A stretch of DNA of 64,000 bases from Fervidicoccaceae archaeon (GTDB lineage Archaea; Thermoproteota; Thermoprotei_A; Sulfolobales; Fervidicoccaceae), in assembly GCA_038878695.1 (NCBI GenBank), contig JAVZVD010000003.1, positions 1 to 64,000 on the forward strand, read 5' to 3'. The notes under the pieces are model-generated. The model searched no databases, was not told the origin of the DNA, and worked only from the letters and a program-made list of their open reading frames with translations. Both the position numbers and the translations under genes were made by a program. Shown here in pieces: positions 21,977 through 30,078 of this stretch; positions within the stretch are counted from its first letter, which is position 1, and every line of letters starts with the position of its first letter.

Positions 21977-23812
21977 ATGAGAGTCGCGGTAATAGACTAC
22001 GCCACCTGCAAGCCCGACAAGTGCAGATTAGAGTGCATCAGGCTCTGCCCGATCAACAGGAGTAGAGCCGGGCCCAAGGCCGTAGAGCTGAGCGAGCAGA
22101 CCGGGAAGCCTGTAATCCGCGAGGACGTCTGCATAGGGTGCAATATATGCGTCAAGAAGTGCCCCTTCAGCTCCATAGAGATAGAGAACGTGCCGGACGA
22201 GCTCGAGAAGAACGTGGTGCACAGATACGGCAGGAACGCCTTCAAGCTCTACGGTCTACCCGTCCTGAAGGTCGACAAGATAACGGGGCTCATAGGCAAG
22301 AACGGCACGGGCAAGACCACGTGCGTGAGGATACTCTCCGGCGAGCTCGTGCCGAACTTAGGGGGCGAGGGGCAGCCGAGCTGGGACGAAGTGATCAGGA
22401 GGTTCCGAGGGACCGAGCTCCAGGCCTACTTCGAGAAGCTGGCCAATGGCAAGCTCAGAGCAGTTCACAAGGTTCAACACGTAGACCTAGTACCGAGGGT
22501 AGTGCGCGGTAGAGTGGGCGAGCTTCTCGAGAGAGCCGACGAGCGGGGTCTGAGGCGGGACCTGATCCGCGACCTCGGGCTAGAACACCTGCTCCACAGG
22601 AGCGTAGCCGCTCTCAGCGGAGGCGAGCTCCAGAAGTTCCTCATCGCGGTTGTGTTAGCAAAGGACGCCCACGTCTACATATTCGATGAGCCGAGCAGTT
22701 ACCTCGATGTGAGCGAGAGGCTGAGAGTGGCCAGGGCGATCAGGAATTATCTGCCCCGCGGCTCCTACGCTCTCGTAGTAGAGCACGACCTCACGATATT
22801 GGATTACCTATCTGATTTAATATGCGTAGTCTATGGGGAGCCTGGAGTCTTCGGCGTGGTCTCGAGTCCGTACGGCGCGAGGGCTGGCGTGAATCACTTC
22901 CTCGAGGGATACCTCCCGGCCGAGAACATGAGGATCAGGCGAGAGCCCATAAAGTTCCACGCGACCGGCAGACCCGAAGAGCTAGGCCCTCCGAGGATCG
23001 AGGCCACGTACTTTGCGTGGGGGCCTTTTCGCGTTAAGCTGAACGGGTTCTCACTTGAAGTTCGATCGGGCAGTGTGGGGATCGGCGAGGTCATGGGAAT
23101 AATCGGCCCCAATGGGATAGGCAAGACCACGCTCGTGCGCGCTGTGGCGGGCCATCTTGAGGAGGACTCGCTCGAGGGAGACTTCCCCCGAGCGACTCTC
23201 AACTATAGAATAAGCTACAAGCCCCAGTACGTGACCCACTCGATGTTCGAGGGAACGGTCGGCGACACACTGAAGAAGGCATCTCAACACGCGCTGAGCC
23301 CCGGTCACTGGCACTTCGAGGAGGTAGTCAGACCTCTCAAGCTGGCCAAGCTGCGGGAGAGAGAAGTGAAGAGCCTCAGCGGGGGCGAGCTCCAGAAGCT
23401 CGCGATAGCCGTAGCGCTGCTTTCGGACGCGGACCTCTACTTACTCGACGAGCCTAGCGCTTATTTGGACGTGGAAGAGAGGCTCCTCGTCGCGAAGGTT
23501 CTCAAGAGAATGATAGCGGCCAAAGGCGCCGCCGCCTTCGTGGTTGAACACGACATGTCGATCGTTGACTACCTCTGCGATCGAGTAATCGTAATAGAAG
23601 GGGAGCCCGGGGTCAGGGGCTTGGCGCGAGAGCCCGCGGGGCTGCGGCAGGGTATGAACGAGTTCCTCAAGATGATTGGCGTCACGTTTCGAAGAGATAT
23701 GCAGACAGGCAGACCGCGCATCAACAAGGAGGACAGCTACCTCGATAGGCTGCAGAAGAAGATAGGCGAATACTACTACGTGCCGAGAGAGGGCGAAGCC
23801 GAAGAGCCGTAG
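21977..23812 (+). CDS. abce1: ABCE1/RLI ribosome-recycling ATPase
   Basis: 611 residues. Splits the ribosome into subunits after termination. The N-terminal domain binds two [4Fe-4S] clusters (CKPDKCRLECIRLCP and CIGCNICVKKCP). NBD1 has Walker A LIGKNGTGKTT, signature LSGGELQK and Walker B IFDEPSSYLD. NBD2 has IIGPNGIGKTT, LSGGELQK and LLDEPSAYLD, with H-loops VVEHD and VEHDMS. Both hinge segments are present. ATG at 21977. Full family length; no oddity apart from a slightly long C-terminus. Confidence 0.97.
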   Translation: MRVAVIDYATCKPDKCRLECIRLCPINRSRAGPKAVELSEQTGKPVIREDVCIGCNICVKKCPFSSIEIENVPDELEKNVVHRYGRNAFKLYGLPVLKVDKITGLIGKNGTGKTTCVRILSGELVPNLGGEGQPSWDEVIRRFRGTELQAYFEKLANGKLRAVHKVQHVDLVPRVVRGRVGELLERADERGLRRDLIRDLGLEHLLHRSVAALSGGELQKFLIAVVLAKDAHVYIFDEPSSYLDVSERLRVARAIRNYLPRGSYALVVEHDLTILDYLSDLICVVYGEPGVFGVVSSPYGARAGVNHFLEGYLPAENMRIRREPIKFHATGRPEELGPPRIEATYFAWGPFRVKLNGFSLEVRSGSVGIGEVMGIIGPNGIGKTTLVRAVAGHLEEDSLEGDFPRATLNYRISYKPQYVTHSMFEGTVGDTLKKASQHALSPGHWHFEEVVRPLKLAKLREREVKSLSGGELQKLAIAVALLSDADLYLLDEPSAYLDVEERLLVAKVLKRMIAAKGAAAFVVEHDMSIVDYLCDRVIVIEGEPGVRGLAREPAGLRQGMNEFLKMIGVTFRRDMQTGRPRINKEDSYLDRLQKKIGEYYYVPREGEAEEP

Positions 23813-27370: not shown

Positions 27371-27619
27371 ATGGGCAGAGTGAGAACCTCATCGGTGAAG
27401 AGGCTCGCTCGACAGCTGCTTCGTGACTATCCTCAGCTCTTCACTACGGACTTCGAGAAGAACAAGGAGATTGTGGCCAAGCTGCTAGAGACCAACAGCA
27501 AGAAGCTTAGAAACCAGGTGGCGGGCTACGTGACTCATCTCGTGAAGTTGCGCGCTCGCGAGATCCCTCCAGCTGCCGAAGCCGAAGAGGCGGCGATCGA
27601 GGAGAGTGCAGCTACTTGA
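27371..27619 (+). CDS. rps17e: Ribosomal protein eS17
   Basis: 82 residues from ATG 27371: MGRVRTSSVKRLARQLL is the family N-terminus, followed by DYPQLFTTDFEKNK and NSKKLRNQVAGYVTHLVK. Small-subunit protein shared by archaea and eukaryotes. An in-frame TTG at 27344 with GGGGGA upstream would add nine basic residues; the family start argues for the ATG. The C-terminus has an acidic, alanine-rich tail. The last 8 bases overlap the convergent phosphoribosyltransferase gene. Confidence 0.93.
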   Translation: MGRVRTSSVKRLARQLLRDYPQLFTTDFEKNKEIVAKLLETNSKKLRNQVAGYVTHLVKLRAREIPPAAEAEEAAIEESAAT

Positions 27620-28247
27620 GCGCGGATCGTCCCACGTCTCTCGAGCTCGCGATCAACGCGAGAATCTTTGCGACTCGCTTGACATCGATCCCGGTCGTGG
27701 CGGCGATTTCAGCGGCTATAGCTTCGAGCTCTTCTCGGCTTCTAGGGAAGGCTTTGTACTCGGCGCGGACGAGCTCCTCAATGATCTCGCGGGGCTCCCA
27801 TGGGAATATAATCCACCTATCGGTCGAAGCGTAGTAGAAATCCGGGACTATTATGCTCCAAGGCTTGACATACAACGTGAGAGTCTTAGTAGTCTTGGGC
27901 CCATAGAGATTGACGGCATTCACGGCCACCTGAAGAGACTTTCCGGTGTCGGCCACGTCGTCCACTATCATGACGTTCCTATCGCGTACGTCGAGCAAGA
28001 GCGGTTGAACTATGACGGGCCTCTCGCTCCTCCCCTGGATCCCCCGATAAAACTTAACCTCTAGAGCGCCGATGTCCCTCACTCCGAGGAGGTCGGCGAT
28101 CAGCCTAGCGACTATCCAGCCACCGCGCATTACTCCGACGACTACGTCGACACGCTCGCCGGCCTCCTCGACGCGCTCGGCCAGCTCGATAACGGCCTCC
28201 TCGACGTCGTTCCAGGTGAGAGATAGGAATTTCACGCCCGAGGACAT
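27612..28247 (-). CDS. Purine phosphoribosyltransferase-like protein
   Basis: 211 residues. The PRPP-binding motif is NVMIVDDVADTGKSL (about residues 92-106), and a basic N-terminal substrate region (VDVVVGVMRGGWIVARLIADLLG) matches the archaeal xanthine/guanine/hypoxanthine PRTase group. It likely salvages a purine base to a nucleotide with PRPP. ATG 28247 follows the ubiquitin-like gene by 2 bp on the same strand, so they form a small operon. The exact base cannot be told from sequence. Confidence 0.88.
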   Translation of the reverse strand: MSSGVKFLSLTWNDVEEAVIELAERVEEAGERVDVVVGVMRGGWIVARLIADLLGVRDIGALEVKFYRGIQGRSERPVIVQPLLLDVRDRNVMIVDDVADTGKSLQVAVNAVNLYGPKTTKTLTLYVKPWSIIVPDFYYASTDRWIIFPWEPREIIEELVRAEYKAFPRSREELEAIAAEIAATTGIDVKRVAKILALIASSRDVGRSALK

Positions 28248-28249
28248 TC

Positions 28250-28504
28250 TCAGCCACCGTGGCTGACCGGGATCAACGTCACCTCGGAGTCGGGCTTCAA
28301 TTCCGGGTCCTCTCCGTAGACCCTATAATCGACGCCATCGATGAGGATCACGTAGAGCCCCGAGGGTCTGCCCTCGCTCGAGGCTAAGTCGGGCACCGCG
28401 CCTCTAAGAGCCCTCAGGACCTCGCTCAATCGGCGCGCCTCGACCTCGAAGATAGCGGAGCCCAGCCTCTCGCGCAGACTACCAAGCAGCCTTACTCTGG
28501 TCAT
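28250..28504 (-). CDS. Ubiquitin-like beta-grasp protein (MoaD/ThiS/SAMP type)
   Basis: 84 residues: beta-grasp pattern MTRVRLLGSLRERLG, FEVEARRLSEVLRALRGAV, YVILIDGVDYRV, DSEVTLIPVSHGG. The C-terminal Gly-Gly is the hallmark of proteins activated by an E1-like enzyme, either to carry sulfur for molybdopterin/tungstopterin or thiouridine, or to tag proteins. The window holds no E1 or MoaE homologue, so the role is open. ATG 28504. Placed directly before a phosphoribosyltransferase gene. Confidence 0.85.
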   Translation of the reverse strand: MTRVRLLGSLRERLGSAIFEVEARRLSEVLRALRGAVPDLASSEGRPSGLYVILIDGVDYRVYGEDPELKPDSEVTLIPVSHGG

Positions 28505-28590: not shown

Positions 28591-29076
28591 TTGAAGAGCG
28601 AGGGACCCGAGGCCTTCGAGATCGTGGTCGGAGACTCTACGCTCTGCGTAGTCGTACACGAGGACGAGAGAGCGAAGATCGGACGTTACAGGTTCGAAGT
28701 CCCCAGAGAGCTGGTCTACTCCGCTCCTCACGCAGCTAAAGCGGTCGAAGTCGCCCTCAGGGCGAGCGCCTCTGGTCGCTCGCTCAGGAGCCTCGAACTA
28801 GAGGTCCTGAGGAGGCTCGTCGTCGTCGAGAGGGTAAACGAGCTTTTGCACCTACTCGAGGAGGTAGGCGCGAGCGAGAAGTGCATAATAGACGTCTACG
28901 ATCTCTGCCCCCCACCGGGGGAGCTTCTGCTTCGCGCCGAGTGCTCCCCCTCGTCGGAGGCCCCGGTGGCTAAGAAAACGCCGCCTAAGATCGTCGAGAT
29001 GAGGAAGAAACGTGAGAGCCTAGAGAACGCGATTTTATCTAGAGTGGAGCTCTCGCTCCTCGACCTGTGGAAGTGA
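28591..29076 (+). CDS. Hypothetical protein
   Basis: 161 residues, not recognised. The N-terminus is beta-rich (EIVVGDSTLCVVVHEDERAKIGRYRF in two strands), the middle helical (APHAAKAVEVALRASASG, RLVVVERVNELLHLLEEVG), and the C-terminus basic then helical (TPPKIVEMRKKRESL, LSLLDLWK). TTG 28591; a TATA-like TTTAAGTC about 28562-28569 would give an almost leaderless mRNA. It is convergent with the Glu/Trp microprotein gene, 8 bp between stops. No function proposed. Confidence 0.65.
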   Translation: MKSEGPEAFEIVVGDSTLCVVVHEDERAKIGRYRFEVPRELVYSAPHAAKAVEVALRASASGRSLRSLELEVLRRLVVVERVNELLHLLEEVGASEKCIIDVYDLCPPPGELLLRAECSPSSEAPVAKKTPPKIVEMRKKRESLENAILSRVELSLLDLWK

Positions 29077-29084
29077 GCCGCTCG

Positions 29085-29180
29085 TTACCACTCCTCCTCT
29101 TCCCACTCCTCCTCTTCCCACCACTCTTCCTCCTCTTCCTCCTCTTCCCACCACTCCTCCTCTTCCTCCTCGAAGAACAT
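29085..29180 (-). CDS. 31-residue Glu/Trp microprotein
   Basis: A complete small gene. After Met-Phe-Phe the protein consists only of Glu and Trp: runs of 6, 8, 4 and 4 Glu separated by WW, WW, W and ending in W (22 Glu, 6 Trp). ATG at 29180, TAA at 29085-29087. GAGGAGGT (minus strand, 29189-29196) is 8 nt upstream and a TATA box GCTATAAATC (29225-29234) is placed for initiation near 29203. On the plus strand the same DNA looks like a pyrimidine repeat. The calculated charge is extremely negative. No family known to me; an anionic DNA- or RNA-mimic or partner-binding peptide is conceivable. Confidence 0.7.
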   Translation of the reverse strand: MFFEEEEEEWWEEEEEEEEWWEEEEWEEEEW

Positions 29181-29224
29181 GTCCGACGACCTCCTCGATT
29201 TCAGCGCGCTAGAGTCCGCCCCCA

Positions 29225-29240
29225 GATTTATAGCTTTAAC
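29225..29240. promoter_or_regulatory. Divergent promoter of the microprotein and the ABC transporter
   Basis: On the minus strand GCTATAAATC is a TATA box about 45 bp from the microprotein ATG. On the plus strand TTATAGCTTTAAC offers a TATA for the ABC exporter genes. The two cores overlap, so the two transcripts probably compete or are co-regulated. Confidence 0.5.
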
Positions 29241-29343
29241 CGCGGCGACCACGCCGGGCCTCGGAGCGGAGATTCTCGCGTCTTCGCCGAGGAGTACTAA
29301 AGAGCTCGGCTCGACTTCACTTGGCGAGGAGGTTGCGCCGAGC

Positions 29344-30078
29344 GTGTTCGTTGCTGAGCTCGAATCGGCGACGAAATCCTACGGGAGGATCAAAGCGCTG
29401 GATGGCCTGAGTCTGAGGGTTCGAGCAGGCGAGGTACTCTGTCTCCTCGGCCCCAACGGATCAGGGAAGACCACGGCGCTGCGCGTACTATTAGGTCTCG
29501 TGAGGCCCGACAGCGGCGTAGCCAGAATCATGGGCTTCAACTCCTTCGAGCTCCCGGAGAACGTGAGGAGGCTCGTCTCTTATCTGCCGGAGGACGCGAG
29601 CCCCTACGAGAGGCTCACGGGGCGCGAGAATCTCTTACTCTTCGCTAGGCTCTACGCATCTACAGACCAAGAGGAAGCAGAGATCCTGGAGAGAGGAGTC
29701 GCGCTCGCCGAGCTAGGCGAGCACATCGATAGAAGGGCGGGTGAGTACAGTAAAGGCATGAAGAGGCGCCTGCTGCTCGCGAGAACTCTCATGGTCGGCG
29801 CATCGCTCGTGGTCTTGGACGAGCCGACTTCGGGTCTAGACGTGTTCACCTTGGTGAAGCTCAGGAGGACTCTCAGAGAGTACGTGGAGGTTCGGAGAGC
29901 GTCTCTCGTGATCAGCAGCCACGCTATGCTGGAGGTGGAGCCCCTCTGCGATAGAGTCGCCCTCCTCCGAGAAGGCAGGCTGGTCGACGAGGGCGCTCTG
30001 AGCGAGCTATTGGAGAAATACGACGCCAGAAATTTGGAGGAGGCCTTCGTGGCGGCGTGCCGAGAGCCTCAGCGTTGA
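29344..30078 (+). CDS. ABC transporter ATP-binding protein (NatA-like exporter)
   Basis: 244 residues: VAELESATKSYGRIKALDG, Walker A LGPNGSGKTT, Q-loop SYLPEDASPYERLTGRENL, signature YSKGMKRRLLLARTL, Walker B LVVLDEPTSGLD, H-loop ISSHA. This matches the ATPase of ABC-2 type exporters. GTG 29344 is chosen because it has GAGGAGGT upstream and lies after the promoter; the open frame back to ATG 29179 crosses the promoter and the microprotein gene. Works with the permease gene 24 bp downstream. Exported substrate unknown. Confidence 0.9.
   Translation: MFVAELESATKSYGRIKALDGLSLRVRAGEVLCLLGPNGSGKTTALRVLLGLVRPDSGVARIMGFNSFELPENVRRLVSYLPEDASPYERLTGRENLLLFARLYASTDQEEAEILERGVALAELGEHIDRRAGEYSKGMKRRLLLARTLMVGASLVVLDEPTSGLDVFTLVKLRRTLREYVEVRRASLVISSHAMLEVEPLCDRVALLREGRLVDEGALSELLEKYDARNLEEAFVAACREPQR

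Follow-up and report, generated by a model that had tools for sequence, protein, structure and literature searches.

A family of glutamate–tryptophan microproteins encoded beside cgi121 and ABCE1 in Thermoproteota

The stretch of DNA analyzed here (64,000 nucleotides, referred to as the window) contains a short reading frame whose product, MFFEEEEEEWWEEEEEEEEWWEEEEWEEEEW, is built almost entirely of glutamate and tryptophan, in the layout MFF-E6-WW-E8-WW-E4-W-E4-W. Such a frame raises two questions: whether so simple a sequence is a gene at all and, if it is, what its product could do. A preliminary description had reported this 31-residue frame, together with a Shine-Dalgarno (SD) sequence and a TATA box, and all of these are found again when the window sequence is re-read (Table 1). 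Tandem Repeats Finder detects in the DNA of the microgene only a degenerate repeat of 3, 15, 27 or 30 nt, with 69–92% matches; hence, the locus is not a clean microsatellite.

Table 1. Features of the window around the glutamate–tryptophan (EW) microgene.
Feature	Position	Strand	Remarks
Phosphoribosyltransferase	27612..28247	-	PF00156; recurs beside cgi121
ThiS/Urm1-type ubiquitin-like protein	28250..28504	-	PF02597; same neighbors in relatives
Divergent cgi121 (KEOPS subunit)	28591..29076	+	convergent with the microgene, stop-to-stop gap of 8 nt
EW microprotein gene	29085..29180	-	ATG (29180-29178) to TAA (29087-29085), 31 aa (22 E, 6 W); supported by relatives and selection
Shine-Dalgarno GAGGAGGT	29189..29196	-	ends 8 nt ahead of the microgene ATG; SD conserved in the EW family
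TATA box TATAAA of the microgene	29227..29232	-	~48 nt ahead of the ATG; TATA-like boxes enriched in the EW family
ABC exporter ATPase	29344..30078	+	divergent neighbor, proposed GTG start; outside the conserved unit
ABCE1/Rli1	21977..23812	+	PF04068 and two ABC domains; 5.3 kb from the microgene here, adjoining in most relatives

A plain protein search of 31 relatives returned one other member only, encoding MVLFLEEEEEWWEEEEEEEEWWEEEEEEEEW in a genome of another family of the order. As composition filters hide two-letter proteins, a search with DNA patterns was needed. The strict pattern, TGGTGGGARGARGARN{0,24}GARTGG, standing for WW-E3..EW, finds a match in 90 of the order's 214 genomes, in almost every case at a single locus; its reversed control matches just one genome. 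When 84,980 species were searched with a similar pattern, 82 stretches matched, almost all of them from Desulfurococcales/Sulfolobales; the named genera are Ignisphaera, Pyrodictium, Staphylothermus, Fervidicoccus and Zestosphaera. The archaeal matches translate to M-x(1-6)-EEE-W(W)-E5..8-WW-E5..8-W-E4-W-stop, and the six bacterial ones sit within other reading frames, mostly long. A looser pattern is matched in 135 of the 229 genomes of the class and, when counted from the same table, in every near-complete genome (completeness of at least 90%; 64/64) of ten families (f1-f4, f8-f10 and f12-f14). The proteins are E/W-only, encoded at single loci and 18 to 67 aa long (median 30). Their run lengths do vary, as had been anticipated from the repetitive sequence, and they do so between species.

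Outside this core, the theme persists in diverged forms. Sulfolobaceae-type genomes (f11) encode proteins of E/D and W/F, e.g., MEEDWEDIEEEDWEDIEEEDWEEDEW, 23–51 nt upstream of ABCE1 in all nine examined. About a dozen families from other classes of the phylum likewise have an E/W or E/D+W/F frame upstream of ABCE1, and a single zinc ribbon often separates the two. In families f24, f25, f27, f32, f36 and f38, the EW gene is found elsewhere in the genome, beside unrelated genes, and in f34 it is also located elsewhere. Anchored at the C-terminus, the pattern matches 118 of 397 genomes of the phylum (control: one); it has no match in family f18, probably Nitrosopumilaceae, and the patterns used detect no EW gene in the Ignicoccus-like family f7. 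Two genomes (G229 and G250) show the C-terminal EW signature at three places instead of one, which could be paralogues or fused tails. At one locus of family f34 (L262, genome G279), a LysW-like zinc ribbon carries an EW tail (EEEEEEEEEWEEEELEEEEW...EEEEEW), possibly the result of a domain fusion of the EW peptide. Viral homologues were rejected: the ten matches (L250-L259) all lie within large phage proteins of about 400–1700 aa, in a different, repetitive W/E-rich context, mostly around WPEDWGPSPTES...EEEWEEEEW, and are unrelated.

The codons of the family separate a protein from a mere tract of purines. GAA (1462), GAG (1285) and TGG (694) dominate, followed by GAY (110), and AAR (1), GGR (7) and AGR (5) hardly occur. 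A purine tract under selection at the DNA level would use all purine codons; hence, the constraint acts on the protein and not on the DNA. Across 30 disjoint ungapped pairs, there are 217.5 synonymous and 79.5 non-synonymous changes, a pN/pS of about 0.04, with the reservation that only pairs of equal length and no less than 80% identity were admitted, a choice that biases pN downwards. Single pairs show the contrast without any model: one of them (L243/L244) differs by 10 synonymous and no non-synonymous changes, and the 60 nt just upstream differ at 38 positions. The preliminary description had staked its claim on relatives keeping the frame and its signals, and they do keep them: the frame is present, an SD of at least 4 nt precedes 78% of the EW genes (25% in shuffles), and TATA-like boxes at −55 to −36 precede 43% (against 6%), a 7-fold enrichment. 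The low complexity of the GAR/TGG sequence would also fit a conserved purine tract acting as a DNA or RNA element, a simple repeat or a low-complexity accident, none of them a protein. With third positions free, purine codons other than those of Glu almost absent, the low pN/pS, a conserved start, SD and stop, and reversed-pattern controls near zero, this is extremely improbable. Chance or a simple repeat as the origin is ruled out by the cross-genome patterns with their reversed controls, the codon statistics and pN/pS. The locus had been proposed to be a genuine gene and not a simple repeat, and its own expression signals, the relatives that carry the frame, the codon statistics and the controls all agree with this. 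It is near certain that the microgene is a real protein-coding gene, and the EW protein is under strong purifying selection at the protein level.

No family in Pfam or NCBIfam matches the EW protein, a sequence search of the PDB found no solved relative, and a literature search for an E/W-rich archaeal small protein gave nothing relevant. One weak PDB match, isocitrate lyase (E 2), was discarded as chance. The EW microproteins stand alone, are encoded in single copy and form a family at the level of the phylum, matched by no library and described in no database searched. Common descent of all their forms would rest on composition, C-terminus and synteny and cannot be proved by an alignment of two letters.

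The most constant element of the protein is its end. Of 125 distinct proteins, 96 end in Trp, where 24 ± 4 are expected, positions −2 to −4 are E/D in 95–98%, and 108 of 139 terminate in EEW. Outside the order, the final Trp is kept in 24 of 27 proteins, and in f11, in eight of nine. It is found in none of the ten proteins of f5/f6, which are longer and encoded away from the usual neighbors; these outlying forms may be analogues rather than homologues. The f5/f6 proteins (L144-L153) measure about 45–67 aa and also contain F/I/L/Y. Upstream of the end, acidic runs (Glu/Asp) of mostly three to eight residues alternate with W runs of one or two, never three, and Asp is strongly excluded in most families. 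AlphaFold predicts a single helix with a pLDDT of 95; any Glu-rich peptide gives a helix, so this is not evidence of function. The aromatics show no helical periodicity at 100 degrees (0.87 vs. 0.82 in permuted sequences), and an amphipathic helix as the mechanism is thereby ruled out, despite the predicted helix. Without a conserved helical face of aromatics, the peptide probably binds in a multivalent and fuzzy manner: the missing periodicity and the variable run lengths suggest stickers and spacers with an anchor at the C-terminus.

The gene neighborhood indicates where such a peptide may act. In the window, an ABC exporter is a close, divergent neighbor, and the microprotein had been suggested to regulate it or to be its cargo. 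The ABC frame can be listed from ATG 29179; in that case, the ABC domain begins only at residue 74. GTG 29344, preceded by a good SD (GAGGAGGT at 29326-29333), is the likelier start of the ATPase, as judged from the sequence. Hence, of the overlap described earlier, the divergent promoters stand, and the coding starts probably do not overlap. In a relative (G003), the closest homologue of the exporter permease (40% identity) is 136 kb away from the microgene; the exporter is thus an accidental neighbor. Scanning the species-level genome collection yielded no relatives of the permease, and no exporter occurs in the other EW neighborhoods seen, where cgi121, ABCE1 and the RPB9/TFS-type zinc ribbon are the genes that recur. 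A regulator or cargo of the exporter, which only the close divergent arrangement in the window would favor, deserves next to no credit.

Among the 111 EW loci, all found by pattern and none retrieved by way of ABCE1, 74 have cgi121 no more than 450 nt from the EW gene (upstream and co-directional in 50, convergent in 24). ABCE1 is present within 1.5 kb at 64 loci and the zinc ribbon at 25; 81 loci have at least one of the three. The usual gene order is eS17 - ThiS/Ubl - (phosphoribosyltransferase) - Cgi121 - EW - (RPB9/TFS-like zinc ribbon) - ABCE1 - FBPase - TIM. The cgi121 gene of the window is divergent: it was recovered by an iterative HMM built from a PF08617-positive relative, has a weak match to the NCBIfam KEOPS Cgi121 family, and, in a fold comparison of its model, Cgi121/TPRKB or KEOPS chains take the first ten places, although with weak E-values. 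Its convergent arrangement with the EW gene is also encountered in Staphylothermus-type genomes and in relative G004.

Some observations concern the neighbors themselves. Divergent Cgi121 genes like that of the window are widespread in Desulfurococcales-type genomes (L139, L066, L040 and others), and Pfam PF08617 misses most of them; a survey of 2010 reported Cgi121 as absent from Sulfolobales/Desulfurococcales (PMC2948915). At six loci (L062, L064, L071, L104, L109 and L117), a ThiS/Urm1-type domain is apparently fused to Cgi121, in a protein of about 250 aa; a fusion of this kind has been described for Thaumarchaea (PMC2948915). The RPB9/TFS-type zinc ribbon is short, is acidic at its C-terminus (LQEYYEVFLETF-EEE) and lacks a second ribbon (L060-L142, e.g., L142:1568-1853). 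In many genomes, it is located between the EW gene and ABCE1 or divergent from the EW gene.

The position 23–51 nt upstream of ABCE1 in Sulfolobaceae-type genomes could be that of a leader peptide acting in cis, whose polyacidic translation would destabilize the ribosome or sense Trp and so regulate the downstream gene. Acidic nascent chains can indeed destabilize ribosomes. A leader peptide is, nevertheless, very improbable. The EW gene does not lie co-directionally and directly upstream of one regulated gene in all members: it is convergent with cgi121 in the window and at 24 loci, and in the window and in Staphylothermus-type genomes it is also divergent from its other neighbor. It also has its own TATA box and SD, and the C-terminal Trp is kept whatever gene is downstream. 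A Trp attenuator or leader was rejected because no gene is common to the downstream positions.

The reading preferred here, to which we give a probability of about 45%, is that the EW protein acts in trans as a polyanionic, Trp-studded docking peptide of the tRNA-modification and ribosome-recycling machinery, with the C-terminal Trp as its anchor. Cgi121 binds tRNA, ABCE1 splits ribosomes, and MtaB acts on t6A, the product of KEOPS. The docking reading is the most economical one, as the neighbors bind tRNA, modify it or split ribosomes. Against it, a gene neighborhood speaks only indirectly, the cluster contains several candidate partners, and in six families (f24, f25, f27, f32, f36 and f38) the EW gene has unrelated neighbors. 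A free polyanion with exposed tryptophans would resemble a nucleic acid in both charge and stacking, and would be steered to a basic, normally RNA-binding surface of its partner. There, the Trp side chains would fill hydrophobic pockets, above all the C-terminal Trp with its free carboxylate, in a binding that is otherwise multivalent and fuzzy. The partner would be tuned or chaperoned until tRNA or the ribosome displaces the peptide. ABCE1 or its ribosomal complex would be the likeliest partner, followed by Cgi121/KEOPS. Of the roles initially imagined for an anionic aromatic peptide, binding to a basic partner probably stays the best class of mechanism, and the role at the exporter was abandoned; for metal chelation, the evidence speaks neither for nor against.

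The same neighborhood could be explained by KEOPS on its own: bound to Cgi121, or to Kae1-Bud32 through Cgi121, the acidic EW protein would regulate t6A synthesis in competition with tRNA, as a functional analogue of the small acidic subunit Gon7. Cgi121 is the commonest neighbor, in two orientations, the adjacency is kept in the family of the window and in Staphylothermus-type genomes despite their differing orientation, and the displaced copies of f6 adjoin MtaB, the tRNA t6A methylthiotransferase (those of f5 adjoin RNase Z). However, Sulfolobaceae-type genomes and several other families have ABCE1 adjoining and no Cgi121 within reach, and the EW protein has no sequence relation to Pcc1/Pcc2 or Gon7; a purely KEOPS-centered role is therefore considered unlikely. 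A general mimic of nucleic acids, or charge buffer, comparable to the tail of bacterial SSB and serving many basic targets unrelated to its neighbors, is another unlikely explanation. It would suit the composition-driven sequence, the fuzzy spacing, the C-terminal aromatic and the unrelated loci of several families, but not the recurrent linkage to cgi121 and ABCE1 across the phylum, nor the exclusion of Asp.

A protein of essentially two amino acids that purifying selection preserves across a phylum, and that no near-complete genome of ten families lacks, indicates that sequences removed by low-complexity filters can be core genes. Gene finders can easily overlook a gene so short and so simple, and homology searches mask it. 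The family points to an unrecognized component of archaeal ribosome recycling or of t6A tRNA modification, two processes that eukaryotes have as well. It would also provide a natural model of fuzzy acidic-aromatic binding in a minimal form. As Sulfolobus is genetically tractable, the function of the EW protein is directly testable.

Several known systems resemble the EW protein in part. The acidic C-terminal tail of bacterial SSB is a polyanion ending in an aromatic residue with a free carboxylate; unlike the EW protein, it belongs to a DNA-binding protein, has Phe as its last residue and contains no series of Trp. Acidic transcriptional activation domains also combine acidic and bulky aromatic residues, with composition prevailing over exact order. 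The EW protein, on the contrary, lacks a DNA-binding domain and is free-standing, and we know of no Mediator in archaea. In activation domains, such a composition can bind specifically without a fixed order, in a fuzzy, multivalent manner (PMC8137143). Gon7 and Pcc2, the fifth subunits of KEOPS, are likewise small proteins linked to the t6A machinery, a linkage that the proximity of cgi121 gives to the EW protein as well. Gon7 is, moreover, acidic and disordered. Neither is related to the EW protein in sequence, and the KEOPS subunit families of Pfam and NCBIfam (Gon7/Pcc2/Pcc1/Cgi121) do not match it; Pcc2 is a paralogue of Pcc1 (PMC9889334).

Lto1 and the CIA signal share with the EW protein a C-terminal Trp after an acidic residue and a link to ABCE1/Rli1. 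To our knowledge, archaea have no CIA targeting complex, which speaks against extending this likeness to function. The C-terminal Trp of Lto1 recruits the Fe-S targeting complex for Rli1 (PMC4523923, PMC10623007). In the same way, the terminal EEW might be a targeting signal that brings an Fe-S assembly factor to ABCE1, a frequent neighbor and itself a protein with two [4Fe-4S] clusters. The conserved C-terminal Trp (96/125 vs. 24 expected) would fit such an adaptor: Lto1 needs its own (PMC4523923), and the eukaryotic signal ends in W/F (PMC10623007). This is, however, quite improbable. The deca-GX3 motif of Lto1 is not in the window protein, which has no glycine; position −2 is E and not L/I/M, so the CIA tripeptide [LIM]-[DES]-[WF] (in part after PMC10623007) is not formed. 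The many internal tryptophans would be left unexplained, and a C-terminal Trp is rare in archaeal Fe-S proteins (PMC10623007).

The other precedent at ABCE1 is eIF3j/Hcr1, which binds ABCE1/Rli1 and acts in termination and recycling (PMC5737393). Trp52 of its acidic motif (NTA) fills a hydrophobic pocket of the eIF3b-RRM, and the acidic residues contact lysines (PMC2824034). The EW sequence has the same feature, Trp embedded in an acidic stretch. The NTA is, however, part of a larger eukaryotic protein, whereas the EW protein stands alone, consists of almost only two letters and has its most conserved Trp at the C-terminus; at 31 aa, or 18–67 aa in the family, it does not contain the eIF3j/Hcr1 domain beyond the acidic N-terminus. 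We also know of no eIF3, including eIF3b, in archaea. The EW protein belongs neither to the eIF3j nor to the Lto1 family, and Trp in an acidic context is common to these two eukaryotic precedents. A bolder reading, tentative and somewhat unlikely, would make it a factor present almost throughout the thermophilic Thermoproteota and possibly ancestral there. The two-letter microprotein would dock via its C-terminal Trp on ABCE1, KEOPS or both and link t6A-tRNA modification to ribosome splitting, as the free-standing equivalent of the acidic-Trp motifs that eIF3j and Lto1 use around eukaryotic ABCE1.
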